A DNA stretch of 35,744 bases, taken from a virus. Positions 709-7,703 of the stretch are shown piece by piece (position 1 is the stretch's first letter; each line of letters opens with the position of its first letter). Location of the stretch: IMG/VR virus record IMGVR_UViG_3300030103_004013, positions 1 through 35,744 of that record; one strand, 5' to 3'. The notes below the pieces were generated by a model that saw only the letters and a list, made by a program, of their open reading frames with translations, had not been told where the DNA came from and did no database searches. The translations under genes were made by a program, and so were the position numbers.

Positions 709-737
709 TTGACATATAGCCCATATTATCCCATAAT
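709..737 (+). promoter_or_regulatory. Sigma70-type promoter for the 783-1646 operon
   Basis: TTGACA (709-714), a 17-base spacer and CATAAT (732-737). The start codon of the first gene follows 45 bases later with SD AACGAAAGGA. The segment ATCCCATAATATA around the -10 recurs in related form near other promoters in this window. Confidence 0.6.
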
Positions 738-782
738 ATAATTGAGTTATTAATATTATCATTTAACGAAAGGAAAAATACA

Positions 783-1163
783 ATGGCTCAAAGTAATATA
801 GAAAAAGCTTTTAAAAAGCATAAACAAAAAGAATGGGAAAAAGAAACCATTAAATTTGTTACTAATAGAGTAATAAAAAATAAAGCTAGTAAGGAAGATA
901 CAAAACTTACTGAAAAGCAACATTTAATAATTGATGAATATGGCAAGTTAAATCTTTATGATGAAATTTCTTCTTCATATTTTGATGAATTAGAAGTTAA
1001 ACATAAAAACAAAACTATTAAAGTTATAAGAAAAAATGATAATGAATCTAATTCTGTGGATTTAAAAAAATGTCAAAAAGAATTTCCAGAACTATATTTG
1101 CAATTATTTAACAACAAACTTATAAGAAATTCAAAATATAGAACTATAAAAATTATTAAATAG
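783..1163 (+). CDS. Lysine-rich protein of unknown function (126 aa)
   Basis: Starts MAQSNIEKAFKKHKQKEWEK; very rich in Lys and Glu, with long predicted helices at the N-terminus and a C-terminal basic segment (RNSKYRTIKIIK). No catalytic motif is visible. A helix-loop region around residues 38-60 (KEDTKLTEKQHLIIDEYG) could be DNA- or protein-binding, but that is a guess. The SD AACGAAAGGAA lies at a normal distance from the ATG. It is the first gene of a three-gene rightward operon ended by a strong terminator at 1660-1700. Confidence 0.75.
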   Translation: MAQSNIEKAFKKHKQKEWEKETIKFVTNRVIKNKASKEDTKLTEKQHLIIDEYGKLNLYDEISSSYFDELEVKHKNKTIKVIRKNDNESNSVDLKKCQKEFPELYLQLFNNKLIRNSKYRTIKIIK

Positions 1164-1204
1164 AAAGGATAGGGAAGAGCTAATAACTCTTCCCTTTTTT
1201 TATT
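1164..1204 (+). promoter_or_regulatory. SD - hairpin - TTTTTTT - N3 - ATG element, copy 1
   Basis: GAAAGGA (1163-1169) precedes a hairpin GGGAAGAG (1172-1179) / CTCTTCCC (1187-1194) with loop CTAATAA, then seven T (1195-1201), ATT, and the ATG of the next gene at 1205. It looks like an intrinsic terminator, yet the start codon lies ten bases past the stem and the only SD lies on the other side of it. Copy 2 is at 1412-1451. Confidence 0.75.
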
Positions 1205-1411
1205 ATGAATAAAAGAATTGTAAGAGTGCCTATTGAAAGTATTGGTGATGTATGTGGATATTCTATGATTGAATACCATATGAATTTTACAGAAACTGTT
1301 AATAAATTATTAAAATCAAACAACATAAATTTTAAATTACAATCAACGTCTTATGGTGGTGAATACCTAGATGAAGACTGGAGAATATTATTTAAAATTG
1401 AAAAAATATAG
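1205..1411 (+). CDS. Small protein of unknown function (68 aa)
   Basis: Starts MNKRIVRVPIESIGDVCGYS and ends WRILFKIEKI. It is predicted alpha/beta with one Cys and no known motif. The assigned ATG has no Shine-Dalgarno at the usual distance; the nearest (GAAAGGA) is 35 bases upstream, beyond a hairpin. A later GTG (1226) has no better site. It is the second gene of the operon from 709, followed at once by an equivalent hairpin element and another gene. Confidence 0.65.
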   Translation: MNKRIVRVPIESIGDVCGYSMIEYHMNFTETVNKLLKSNNINFKLQSTSYGGEYLDEDWRILFKIEKI

Positions 1412-1451
1412 AAAGGATAAGGGAAAGCTAATAACTTTCCCTTTTTTTGTT
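1412..1451 (+). promoter_or_regulatory. SD - hairpin - TTTTTTT - N3 - ATG element, copy 2
   Basis: GAAAGGATAA (1411-1420), stem GGGAAAG (1421-1427) / CTTTCCC (1435-1441) with the same CTAATAA loop, seven T (1442-1448), GTT and ATG at 1452. Compared with copy 1 the stem sequence differs but complementarity is kept, while loop, T count and distance to ATG are identical. Confidence 0.75.
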
Positions 1452-1646
1452 ATGCAATCATTAACATTAAAACAAGTAAGAAAATTATTATTTACTTTGA
1501 GTGATAAACATTTATCTAATTTACTTAAACAAAAAAAAGAAAATGATTCTGAATTTAAAAAAGCTTTATTAGATGAAATGGCTAGTAGAGTTTTTATTGA
1601 AGTTAGAAACAAATATGGAATTGTTAAAGGCAATTTAAAAAAATAA
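1452..1646 (+). CDS. Small helical protein of unknown function (64 aa)
   Basis: Starts MQSLTLKQVRKLLFTLSDKH and ends GIVKGNLKK; Lys/Leu-rich and predicted all-helical. The frame is open further upstream to an ATG at 1371, but that would overlap the preceding gene and read through the hairpin, so the ATG at 1452 ten bases after the hairpin stem is preferred. It is the third and last gene of the operon, with a strong terminator 14 bases after the stop. Confidence 0.65.
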   Translation: MQSLTLKQVRKLLFTLSDKHLSNLLKQKKENDSEFKKALLDEMASRVFIEVRNKYGIVKGNLKK

Positions 1647-1659
1647 AGTTTCTTCCTTA

Positions 1660-1700
1660 CTGGATCAGCTTGAAAAAAATCAAGCTGATCCAGGTTTTTT
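1660..1700 (+). terminator. Strong intrinsic terminator
   Basis: A 14-bp perfect stem (1660-1673 with 1680-1693, CTGGATCAGC...) closes an AAAAAA loop and is followed by G then six T. It ends the rightward operon 783-1646. Confidence 0.9.
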
Positions 1701-2980: not shown

Positions 2981-3508
2981 TTATTTTTTCAACAATTTTT
3001 CAAGTTGTGCAAATAAATTATTCAAGGTTCTCGATTCTAGGATCAAGCGAAATATTCCTGGATTATTGTTTTTTGAATCTGTTTTTTTGATTCTAGGTTC
3101 ACGAAGCTTCTTATCAATATGATTAGATATGATTGTATGATTAGATATGATATGATTGCGAATATGATTGGGGATATGATCGCGAATATGATTGGATATG
3201 ATATGATTTCGTGAATCAAGAGCCACGATTCTGAAAAGTTTGAAGCCTCTCTGCTTGGTACTTGGTAGCAAGATAAAAACTTTACCACCACATTTTTGAT
3301 GTTTGATATGCCAATTGATCTGATAGTTTGATAATCCTAAATTCTTGCTCTCCTTTGATTTTAATTCAATCCAAAACTCAAAACCATTAATTAAACAGTT
3401 TACATCAGGAATTCCTCTGATTGTGGCACTCTCAATTCTCGTAAAGTGCCACAATTTCTGTGTTTTTTGAAGTGTGTTGATTTTTTGCCACAATTGAGAT
3501 TCATTCAT
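2981..3508 (-). CDS. VRR-NUC-like PD-(D/E)XK nuclease with Asn-His-Ile repeat insert (175 aa)
   Basis: Probable structure-specific or Holliday-junction-type nuclease. Counting from the ATG at 3508, the core shows RIESATIRGIPDVN (D35), EFWIELKSK (E48, K50) and the following Q63, the order expected of a VRR-NUC fold, ending near residue 98. Residues 101-131 are a run of NHI/NHT units (NHIISNHIRDHIPNHIRNHI), translated from a DNA repeat. A basic tail with FRLILESRTLNNLFAQLEKL follows. A TTG six bases further upstream is also possible. The start overlaps the upstream micro-gene by eight bases. The repeat probably forms a low-complexity linker; whether it harms activity is unknown. Confidence 0.75.
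   Translation of the reverse strand: MNESQLWQKINTLQKTQKLWHFTRIESATIRGIPDVNCLINGFEFWIELKSKESKNLGLSNYQINWHIKHQKCGGKVFILLPSTKQRGFKLFRIVALDSRNHIISNHIRDHIPNHIRNHIISNHTIISNHIDKKLREPRIKKTDSKNNNPGIFRLILESRTLNNLFAQLEKLLKK
3119..3208. repeat. ATGATT repeat tract inside the nuclease gene
   Basis: Ten ATGATT-like units (seven exact, plus ATGATC and two ATGATA) begin at 3119, 3129, 3137, 3147, 3152, 3164, 3176, 3188, 3198 and 3203. GCGAATATGATTGG occurs twice, 24 bases apart. The tract has a length compatible with the reading frame and is read as Asn-His-Ile units on the minus strand. Confidence 0.85.
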
Positions 3509-4092: not shown

Positions 4093-4308
4093 ATGACCAA
4101 AGACTTATTTAAATTAACTGATGATCAACAAAAGGTTCTCAAAAAATTTAATTGGGATGTAACACCTCAAGGTAAGGTTTTAGATTTATACCACGAGGAT
4201 TTCCAAGAAGGTATATGGGAACAAATACTACAAGTAATGGGTGAACATTCTGATAAGCTAACTTTGTTTGTAATTGGTGTTAATTCAGATAAAAGGAGAA
4301 GTGAATAA
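4093..4308 (+). CDS. Cassette protein 1, unknown function (71 aa)
   Basis: Starts MTKDLFKLTDDQQKVLKKFN and ends VIGVNSDKRRSE; acidic helices followed by a hydrophobic strand. An ATG at 4054 in the same frame lies inside the promoter, while the ATG at 4093 has SD AACGAAAGG, so the latter is chosen. First of twelve overlapping + strand genes. No known motif. Confidence 0.7.
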   Translation: MTKDLFKLTDDQQKVLKKFNWDVTPQGKVLDLYHEDFQEGIWEQILQVMGEHSDKLTLFVIGVNSDKRRSE

Positions 4309-4442
4309 TGACTTACGAAGAACTTATTAAATGGTTAGACAATGCAGACGTTGACTATGAAGAAGTTGAACACTTTAAAGATGAAGCGGGTGCATCAATA
4401 TGGATTAGATTTGATTTAGACGAGGAGGATGATGATGACTAA
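4308..4442 (+). CDS. Cassette protein 2, small acidic protein (44 aa)
   Basis: Starts MTYEELIKWLDNADVDYEEV and ends FDLDEEDDDD. It is extremely acidic, with an Asp/Glu tail. Its ATG shares a base with the previous stop (TAATG) and an AAAAGGAG SD precedes it. The polyacidic end resembles DNA-mimic or RNAP-binding phage inhibitors, but that is only an analogy. The GGAGG inside its last codons is the SD of the next gene. Confidence 0.7.
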   Translation: MTYEELIKWLDNADVDYEEVEHFKDEAGASIWIRFDLDEEDDDD

Positions 4443-4638
4443 ATACATAGCTGATATATCAAGTGTCCACGAGGTTTCTGAAAAAGAAAAGAAACTTTTG
4501 GAAACAGTTTGGTCAGATGATGAGATCAAACAATGGTTAGTCAAACAAGTAATGGATAACAAGATTGAGTTTTTAGGTATTCATTATGATAATGACGGAG
4601 AAGAACTAGAGAATGTAGATTTGGGAGGAGTACTATGA
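4435..4638 (+). CDS. Cassette protein 3, acidic (67 aa)
   Basis: Starts MTKYIADISSVHEVSEKEKK. Three ATGs lie in a row (4429, 4432, 4435); the last sits six bases after GAGGAGG and is preferred. The protein is helical and acidic, with a HYDNDGEELENVD segment near the end. It overlaps both neighbours. Function unknown. Confidence 0.7.
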   Translation: MTKYIADISSVHEVSEKEKKLLETVWSDDEIKQWLVKQVMDNKIEFLGIHYDNDGEELENVDLGGVL

Positions 4639-4883
4639 CTAAACAATATAAAATATATAAAAGAACTGTCCACGAGGATCGAGGAATCCATGTAAGCTTT
4701 GGCACGGAGGAAGATGTCAAGGATTGGAGAGAGGAGGAACAAGAATGGATCGAGGAGGATCTGTGTGTTGATGCAGATACCATTGAGGAATTAAAAATAA
4801 CCTCAACTGATTCAAACATTGGTAAAATATTAAATGTAATTAACGATAACATTAATGAACTGAAAGGAAAAAGTTATGACTAA
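4635..4883 (+). CDS. Cassette protein 4, acidic (82 aa)
   Basis: Starts MTKQYKIYKRTVHEDRGIHV and has a strongly acidic middle (WREEEQEWIEEDLCVDADT). ATGA overlap with the previous gene and SD GGGAGGAG. No recognisable domain. Confidence 0.7.
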   Translation: MTKQYKIYKRTVHEDRGIHVSFGTEEDVKDWREEEQEWIEEDLCVDADTIEELKITSTDSNIGKILNVINDNINELKGKSYD

Positions 4884-5921: not shown

Positions 5922-6220
5922 TGCCAATATTAGTACAATATAAAATCATTGATGGTTTCAATGAATACAATAACTATGTCATTCATCAAGATGATGTTGA
6001 TGTAAAAGATGATCAAGAATTAATCAGGGATGTGTTTCCTGATTCTCTACCTGATGACAATGGTGGTGAGCAAGATGACTATAGAAAAATAGAAGTTGTT
6101 TATACCAAAAGCATAGGTATTAAACATGCAGAGTTTCTGCAAGAATGTTTCATTGCATTCCCTTTTGGGGGTAATGAATGGTTAAGACAATTAGCAACGA
6201 AAAAAAGGAGTGCGAAATGA
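5921..6220 (+). CDS. Cassette protein 9 (99 aa)
   Basis: Starts MPILVQYKIIDGFNEYNNYV. The N-terminal part reads as a beta-strand followed by a very acidic segment (DDVDVKDDQE, SLPDDNGGEQDD), then AFPFGGNEWLRQLATKK, a basic helix. It shares one base with the previous stop (TAATG) and has SD AAGGAGAG. Function unknown. Confidence 0.7.
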   Translation: MPILVQYKIIDGFNEYNNYVIHQDDVDVKDDQELIRDVFPDSLPDDNGGEQDDYRKIEVVYTKSIGIKHAEFLQECFIAFPFGGNEWLRQLATKKRSAK

Positions 6221-6264
6221 AACACGAGGAAATTTTTAATGCTATTAAGCCAGAGGATGTGTGA
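6217..6264 (+). CDS. Cassette micro-ORF 10 (15 aa)
   Basis: Encodes MKHEEIFNAIKPEDV. It has its own SD (AAGGAG) and is joined to its neighbours by ATGA and TGATG overlaps, so ribosomes almost certainly pass through it. It may be a real peptide or only a device that couples translation of the next gene. Confidence 0.4.
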   Translation: MKHEEIFNAIKPEDV

Positions 6265-7269: not shown

Positions 7270-7418
7270 AAATATTTGCTTATTTTACTTTTTGTTTTAA
7301 AAAAAAAGTTGTAAGGAACGACATTATAGGATTTTGGGAAAAAATGATTGTACACTATGATTAAATATGATAGAACAATATATGTAGGGGTATCACCTCT
7401 TCCTTTCGTTACATATTG
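7270..7418. other. Non-coding stretch with an orphan SD-like motif
   Basis: I see no convincing gene. On the minus strand TAACGAAAGGAAGAGG (7396-7411) matches the extended ribosome-binding motif found before many genes here, but it is followed by only an 11-codon GTG ORF. A 62-codon minus frame over this stretch (7239-7427) runs through the TTCCTA array and lacks its own SD. Confidence 0.5.
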
Positions 7419-7460
7419 ATAGCACATAGATTTTTATGATTTATGTGCTATTTTTTTATA
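7419..7460 (+). promoter_or_regulatory. Hairpin - TTTTTTT - N3 - ATG element, copy 3
   Basis: TAGCACATA (7420-7428) pairs with TATGTGCTA (7442-7450), then seven T (7451-7457), ATA and ATG at 7461. The stem-to-start layout equals that of the two copies at 1164-1204 and 1412-1451, but loop and stem sequence are unrelated and no SD precedes the stem. It could also simply be a terminator for rightward transcription. Confidence 0.6.
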
Positions 7461-7703
7461 ATGTATCTTTTTCTTGAATTTATTTGTGCGATTACGGCTG
7501 TTATTTCTATTTACATTTATGGTAATCAATCCTGGTATGCACCTCTATTTGGTCTATTTTCACAAATATTCTGGCTCACGTGGACCGTGGTTGGTGGTCA
7601 TTATCCCATGCTTATATTGAGCTGCGCCATGATAATCACGCATTTTAGAAATTTTAAGACGATGCAGACTACAAAAGTTTTGAGACAAAAATGGTGGAAA
7701 TAG
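7461..7703 (+). CDS. Membrane protein, unknown function (80 aa)
   Basis: Three hydrophobic segments are visible: MYLFLEFICAITAVISIYI, LFGLFSQIFWLTWTVV and MLILSCAMIITHF, followed by a basic tail (RNFKTMQTTKVLRQKWWK). The ATG at 7443 in the same frame falls within the hairpin arm, so the ATG at 7461 is preferred. It overlaps the 3' end of the convergent 7669-8133 gene by 35 bases and is the only + gene in this stretch. It might be a holin or a host-envelope modifier; there is no family evidence. Confidence 0.6.
   Translation: MYLFLEFICAITAVISIYIYGNQSWYAPLFGLFSQIFWLTWTVVGGHYPMLILSCAMIITHFRNFKTMQTTKVLRQKWWK

Follow-up and report, generated by a model that had tools for sequence, protein, structure and literature searches.

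A terminator-like hairpin between a stop-fused Shine–Dalgarno sequence and the start codon as a candidate modular gene connector in an ocean virus family

Introduction

What can a terminator-like hairpin do when it stands between the only Shine–Dalgarno sequence (SD) of a gene and its start codon? The question is raised by a 57.5-kb virus record, of which we analysed a stretch of 35,744 nt (the window). A sequence-only reading had reported that the genes starting at 1205, 1452 and 7461 are each preceded by a stem-loop, seven T, three bases and ATG, and had proposed that these hairpins act on both transcription and translation. The sequence at the three sites is exactly as described, and the observation proved, if anything, understated.

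The element analysed here combines devices of known kinds: a bridged ribosome-binding site, an attenuator and a shuffling cassette. In pyrBI-type attenuation, an intrinsic attenuator is governed by the ribosome. The Escherichia coli terminator tR2 is almost completely repressed when it lies a few bp from a stop codon and becomes stronger with distance (PMC4824070). Genes 38 and 25 of phage T4 are translated via a hairpin bridge that shortens the SD–AUG distance from 22 to 5 nt and from 27 to 11 nt, respectively (Nivinskas 1999 and Malys and Nivinskas 2009, as reviewed in PMC3014915). T4-type phages also carry promoter-early stem-loop cassettes, or PeSLs (Arbiol 2010 and Comeau 2014, as summarized in PMC4503421).

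Hairpin–T7–ATG sites in the window

The genome is a relative of the Pelagibacter phage HTVC023P, to whose DNA polymerase its own is 70% identical, and the carriers of the element are an ocean virus family infecting SAR11-type bacteria. A scan for a hairpin followed by a T-run, ATG and an open reading frame (ORF) of at least 35 aa found three sites in the window and none in the genome's next 19 kb or in HTVC023P; the expectation was 0.1 per Markov-simulated window, or 0.05 if an SD was required. The genome has 109 runs of seven or more T, four of which are followed by exactly N3-ATG, and three of these four are the reported copies. Folding energies for copies 1, 2 and 3 were −16.0, −12.5 and −17.5 kcal/mol (z −4.1, −2.9 and −6.8, respectively). 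Terminator-like sites numbered 24 in 18 kb, against 6.5 expected. Within the window, Rfam returned no match at the gathering score, and a direct similarity search of annotated phage records with 9 kb of the window and the element returned nothing or weak chance matches.

The claim that all three copies share one layout held for copies 1 and 2, referred to below as elements 1 and 2 (Table 1). Copy 3 lacks an SD and has another loop and another spacer, and we rejected it as a member of the family. Its hairpin, T7 and ATG are kept in two other contigs, L020 and L023. Near position 7190 of L023 (reverse strand), an SD-like GAGGA stands flush before a copy-3-type stem; it is missing in the window and in L020.

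Table 1. Features of the three-gene operon and of the third reported site, in window coordinates
Feature	Position	Strand	Details
Promoter-like site of the three-gene operon	709..737	+	TTGACA-N17-CATAAT, 11/12
Ordinary SD of the leader	767..773	+	CGAAAGG, 9 nt ahead of ATG
Leader gene, 'MAQ' protein	783..1163	+	126 aa; TAG stop overlaps SD of element 1
Element 1	1161..1207	+	TAG stop 1161–1163 fused to AGAAAGGA SD 1162–1169
Element 1, parts		+	stem 1171–1179/1187–1195, loop CTAATAA 1180–1186, T7 1195–1201, ATT, ATG 1205
Cargo gene 1	1205..1411	+	68 aa, MNKRIVRVP...; homologues L002–L009
Element 2	1409..1454	+	TAG 1409–1411 fused to AGAAAGGA SD 1410–1417
Element 2, parts		+	stem 1419–1427/1435–1443, loop CTAATAA 1428–1434, T7 1442–1448, GTT, ATG 1452
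Cargo gene 2	1452..1646	+	64 aa, MQSLTLKQ...; homologue L011
Conserved spacer AAAGTTTCTTCCTT	1645..1658	+	last stop codon to operon-end terminator; also in relatives
Operon-end intrinsic terminator	1660..1700	+	14-bp stem, −25 kcal/mol, T6
Reported copy 3	7418..7463	+	stem 7418–7452, T7 7451–7457, ATA, ATG 7461; no SD

Anatomy of the element

Elements 1 and 2 have the layout TAG-AAAGGATA-stem-CTAATAA-stem-T7-[A/G]TT-ATG. As the sequence-only reading had noted, the sole SD lies about 35 nt from the ATG: the linear distance is 35–36 nt in the window, with no nearer SD, and 35–38 nt in relatives. With the GGG/CCC hairpin collapsed, this distance falls to 13–15 nt, or to 9–13 nt when the outer A-U pairs are included. 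An overlong linear SD–AUG distance and an intervening stem-loop that shortens it are both features of the T4 gene 25 type, and the comparison with that gene, which had already been drawn, fits quantitatively (35–38 to about 9–15 nt here, 27 to 11 nt in T4; PMC3014915). The stem starts 7–8 nt past the upstream stop codon, which itself lies 41–44 nt before the ATG, and the gap between stem and ATG is only 9–11 nt. Pairing of the SD with the 3′ end of 16S rRNA extends over 8 nt at about −9 kcal/mol, a value calculated with the general bacterial tail rather than one read from SAR11.

As in an intrinsic terminator, the G+C-rich stem runs straight into the U-tract. The ordinary spacer between SD and ATG is rich in A here (49%, with 30% T) and has a median length of 8 nt. 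Set against this, the T7–8 run and the G+C-rich stem base are terminator hallmarks. The hairpin cores (−13.7 and −11.0 kcal/mol) are weaker than the operon-end terminator (−25 kcal/mol), which fits a partial terminator. In the predicted lowest-energy fold, a portion of the SD is paired to the U-tract, which adds only 1.5–2.3 kcal/mol of stability; such pairing could mask the SD, with a predicted gain smaller than the SD–16S pairing energy. In most copies, the upstream frame carries paired stops two codons apart (TAG AAA GGA TAG/TAA, at 1161–1172 and 1409–1420 in the window), the second resembling a retained back-up.

An element family in other viral contigs

A search of related genomes, which the sequence-only reading had recommended, turned up a family of elements whose stem pairing is kept across versions: the 47-nt element occurs in 18 further viral contigs besides the window, whereas all isolates checked, HTVC023P among them, lack it. 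The exact pattern (SD, loop and T-run) recovered 13 other contigs, and a looser pattern that left hairpin, loop and stem unspecified yielded additional members; all hits of this family had the hairpin. A search with the leader protein added L081 and L082, which have the hairpin, and L093, which has neither hairpin nor cargo. Because several contigs are near-duplicates, we counted distinct elements and cargo families, and the totals do not give a number of independent events. The family consensus is TAG-AAAGGATA-stem-CTAATAA-stem-T7-8-[A/G]TT-ATG. In nearly all copies the stop codon of the upstream gene is merged with the SD, and in nearly all the T7–8 run is unbroken beside the GGG/CCC stem base. 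In three cases (L081, L082 and the second element of L026), TTTGTTTT replaces T8, indicating that an unbroken U-tract is not essential, which either weakens the case for a terminator role or points to tuning.

The stem differences between elements 1 and 2, in which pairing is kept, had been read as covariation within one genome, and the same holds across genomes. Four stem versions occur among the 15 listed entries (14 distinct sequences): GGGAAGAG/CTCTTCCC, GGGAAGG/CCTTCCC, GGGAAAG/CTTTCCC and GGGAAGGC/GTCTTCCC. All four are fully paired, with two-sided changes at pairs 6, 7 and 8; the stem base and the loop are invariant, and the covariation is therefore limited to these three pairs. Stems were counted directly; the MAFFT alignment A3 misplaces the stem by one base, understating the pairing.

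Ahead of the element there is always either the MAQ leader gene, which has a promoter and an SD of its own, or, for second elements, the preceding cargo gene. A comparable promoter precedes the leader in L079, L081 and L082 (TTGACA) and a less similar one in L093, and AACGAAAGG or TTCGAAAGG stands ahead of nearly all leader relatives. Three leader subfamilies, with about 30–35% identity to one another, precede the same element. At the other end of the operon, the spacer takes the form (A)GTTCCTTCCTT in the relatives that reach that point and is found at a single place in G000. Leader and cargo proteins gave no Pfam match above the curated cut-offs. The leader of L016 weakly resembled the end of a RecE-like profile (PHROG, 1.5e-5), which we rejected as an indication of function, and the predicted leader structure (pLDDT 50, no confident fold) was not used. 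Arrays of the repeats ATATGATT / TATGATTG lie at 1740–1850, after the cargo operon, and at 3110–3200 of the window, and these repeats also trail the operon end in many relatives. Elsewhere in the window, CCACGAGG or CACGAGGA occurs several times within a cluster of small plus-strand genes (4180–4700 and 6220–6230).

Gene exchange at the element

The cargo genes behind the element belong to 12 unrelated families of small proteins (39–107 aa). Their position makes it possible that they are early genes for host takeover or anti-defence. Outside the locus, homologues of cargo gene 1 in L002–L006 and L008 start at the same ATG (L004, the closest, is 77% identical); in most cargo 1 homologues, an ordinary SD precedes the start by about 8 nt and there is no hairpin. 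Upstream of the L004 homologue, the sequence reads AAATAGAAAGG-GAAAAATAAA-ATG, which is the same fusion of stop and SD with an A-rich spacer replacing the hairpin. Likewise, the cargo 2 homologue in L011 has the same ATG, a GGAG SD and no hairpin. Because homologues share these ATGs behind ordinary SDs, the starts are real and the hairpin is an addition; because the hairpin is missing from most cargo homologues outside the locus, it belongs to the locus and not to the gene. The sequence-only reading had held that homologues starting at a different codon or lacking the hairpin would speak against it. Hairpin-free homologues do exist outside the locus, yet they start at the same ATG, and they do not refute a function of a hairpin that belongs to the locus.

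Comparison of contig pairs located the points of exchange. L022 and L025 are 59% identical upstream of the element, which is background for this AT-rich DNA, and 100% identical in both element and cargo. Between the window and L022, identity is 97% upstream, 98% in the element and 55% (background) in the cargo. Several such pairs change their level of identity at the element, which is therefore a shuffling junction. Element–cargo units stand two in a row in L019 and in the window. L093 (3310–3370) has no element and no cargo: its leader stop, TAGAAAG, is followed at once by TTCCTTCCTT and the terminator of the operon end. L092 carries cargo behind the same leader, and comparing the two contigs gives the outline of the inserted unit. 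Farther downstream, genes of L020 and the window share up to 100% identity, so the cargo site varies within a genome that is conserved. Since the [A/G]TT-ATG end is constant ahead of unrelated genes, the ATG is part of the element, which is thus an initiation element and not a terminator alone.

The same order in unrelated phages

Hits from wider scans were chosen by pattern and attest to recurrence, not frequency. A loose pattern identified two environmental virus groups in which SD-hairpin-T7-8-ATT links a gp2.5-like single-stranded DNA-binding protein (SSB) gene to the ATG of a downstream Cas4-type exonuclease gene; the stop TAA abuts the SD in one of the groups. Exonuclease relatives from isolated phages (L094–L101) have no hairpin at that start, which confines this case to the two environmental groups. 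A second pattern, with AGGAG, matched 56 stretches. In a group with a major head protein gene (PHROG 617), the stop lies a few bases before an SD that is flush with a G+C-rich hairpin, and the hairpin leads through T7 into the ATG of a 60-aa gene; the stems differ yet pair. Where a pattern hit is followed by an ORF, the SD in most cases adjoins the stem or barely overlaps it; where no ORF follows, it mostly lies within the stem, which is what chance capture of ordinary terminators would give. Bacterial hits were rejected, only one Enterococcus pair looking similar: in two species (L073:6647–6694 and L076:2088–2136), AGAAAGGATA-hairpin-T7-ATT-ATG precedes an SDR-like gene, with the loop changed and the stem kept.

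Isolated relatives of the PHROG 617 head protein mostly have the order stop-terminator-SD-ATG, which is so annotated in Burkholderia phage Mica. The terminator after the major head gene in Mica, VP882, phiHAP-1 and CRP-821 resembles the present element as an expression step-down between co-transcribed genes, but it differs in its order, which in the L102/L143 viruses, as in elements 1 and 2, is stop-SD-terminator-ATG. Among the papers searched, we found no description of a terminator between an SD and its start codon.

Weighing the explanations

We propose that elements 1 and 2 are modular gene connectors in which an attenuator of the intrinsic-terminator type is combined with a hairpin-bridged ribosome-binding site, a reading to which we give an even chance. 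The joint conservation of hairpin, T-run, SD position and ATG position before unrelated genes favours a dual role in transcription and translation, which fits both copies better than either half alone and is the best-supported reading, if an unproven one; the word 'switch', with its two regulated states, is the part of the original proposal that we do not retain. A simpler account, which we regard as doubtful though a serious competitor, keeps only the bridge: as in T4 gene 25, the U-run would be an unstructured spacer, and the ribosome at the stop codon would make termination negligible. The SD flush with the stem, the constant collapsed distance and the stop 7–8 nt from the stem agree with this account, as does the fact that E. 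coli ribosomes strongly suppress such terminators (PMC4824070), and the TTTGTTTT variants retain the spacing yet interrupt the U-tract. However, if spacing alone mattered, one would expect neither an unbroken T7–8 run beside a GGG/CCC base in nearly all copies, where ordinary spacers are A-rich, nor the terminators that isolated phages have at the corresponding junction after the capsid gene. Conversely, the hairpin could be an ordinary intergenic terminator that happens to precede the next gene, with the SD a leftover or chance match and ribosomes reaching the start either by 70S scanning or, from the stop codon, by re-initiation. Every hallmark of a terminator is present, the genome is compact and the stop is only 41–44 nt from the ATG, but the ATG is fixed after T7–8 ahead of 12 unrelated genes, every copy has an 8-nt SD flush with the stem and none after the hairpin, and scan hits leading into ORFs have the SD beside the stem, or barely overlapping it, where most ORF-less hits have it inside. 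We therefore consider chance placement unlikely.

Two further explanations place the function elsewhere. The element might be kept mainly as short homology for cargo exchange, any effect on expression being incidental; breakpoints at the element and the L093 site, which lacks both element and cargo, agree with this, and there is precedent in PeSLs, described in PMC4503421 as regulatory motifs serving as shuffling points. As homology requires neither pairing-preserving stem changes nor fixed SD and ATG positions, we judge this very improbable. The hairpin might also be an operator, its CUAAUAA loop bound by the leader or another phage protein that controls termination or initiation. The loop is identical across copies while the inner stem varies, and the leader gene is always adjacent; against this, the same loop follows three divergent leader subfamilies, the leader has no confident predicted fold and belongs to no recognised RNA-binding family, and other phages with the same layout have different loops. 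Such an operator would surprise us greatly.

Proposed mechanism

Under the connector reading, RNA polymerase would initiate at the promoter-like site (709–737) and transcribe the leader gene, at the end of which a 9-bp hairpin and U7 would be made. Without a close ribosome, the hairpin would fold and release some polymerases ahead of the next ATG. As the stop is merged with the SD, a ribosome terminating there, 7–8 nt before the stem, would cover the 5′ arm and allow the polymerase to read through. The earlier proposal had invoked antitermination or read-through as the gate; read-through would suffice without an antiterminator, since it is established for E. coli that ribosomes suppress terminators adjacent to stop codons (PMC4824070). 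In the read-through RNA, the hairpin would refold once the ribosome has departed and bring the SD to about 9–15 nt from the ATG instead of 35–38 nt. The bridged SD would then direct translation of the cargo, perhaps by the terminating ribosome itself. The net output would be low, leader-coupled expression of any small gene plugged in, and the element, with its stop, SD and ATG, would double as homology for the exchange of cargo genes. It is from the arrangement of these parts that we infer partial termination, ribosome gating, bridging and the level of expression; the ribosome at the leader stop might suppress termination almost fully, leaving the bridge alone.

More tentatively, and with somewhat less than even confidence, we suggest that stop-SD-terminator-U7-N3-AUG is a general, so far unnamed design of phage operon junctions. 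Transcription across such a junction would need a ribosome at the stop to hold the hairpin open, and initiation would need the hairpin closed, so that output of the downstream gene would depend on, and scale with, how actively its upstream neighbour is translated. In some phages, the junction would have become a standard connector for swapping accessory genes.

Discussion

The features that go beyond the original observation are the merging of the stop with the SD, the role of the element as a gene-shuffling junction and the recurrence of the layout in unrelated phages; modular reuse and this recurrence are the stronger of the new facts. Like T4 genes 25 and 38, the element has a stem-loop that shortens an overlong SD–AUG distance. 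The review describes no terminator-type U-tract for those genes, whereas the present hairpin runs through U7–8 straight into N3-AUG; its SD, moreover, is merged with the stop codon of the preceding gene, and one and the same element serves many unrelated genes. Its likeness to ribosome-suppressed terminators and attenuators lies in a G+C-rich hairpin and U-tract placed where an upstream ribosome can block folding; it differs from them in that the next gene's SD precedes the terminator and the AUG directly follows it. With PeSLs, as PMC4503421 presents them, it shares a short conserved stem-loop or terminator motif that borders swapped small phage genes, and exchange of neighbouring genes occurs at the motif here too. 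However, PeSLs are there described as promoter–terminator motifs, whereas in the present family the promoter precedes the leader gene, and an SD and a start codon, rather than an early promoter within or past the hairpin, complete the element.

If the connector reading is correct, a 47-nt element would do three jobs, ending the upstream message, starting the next protein and marking a border for gene exchange, with one hairpin that is open for continued transcription and closed for the start of translation. This would explain how unrelated small early genes can be plugged into one controlled slot. The layout also provides a searchable signature for such slots and for their correct start codons, which gene finders may miss because no SD lies near the ATG. 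It would also open to direct test, by simple reporters, the long-standing question of how coupling of transcription and translation sets the gene ratios of phage operons.
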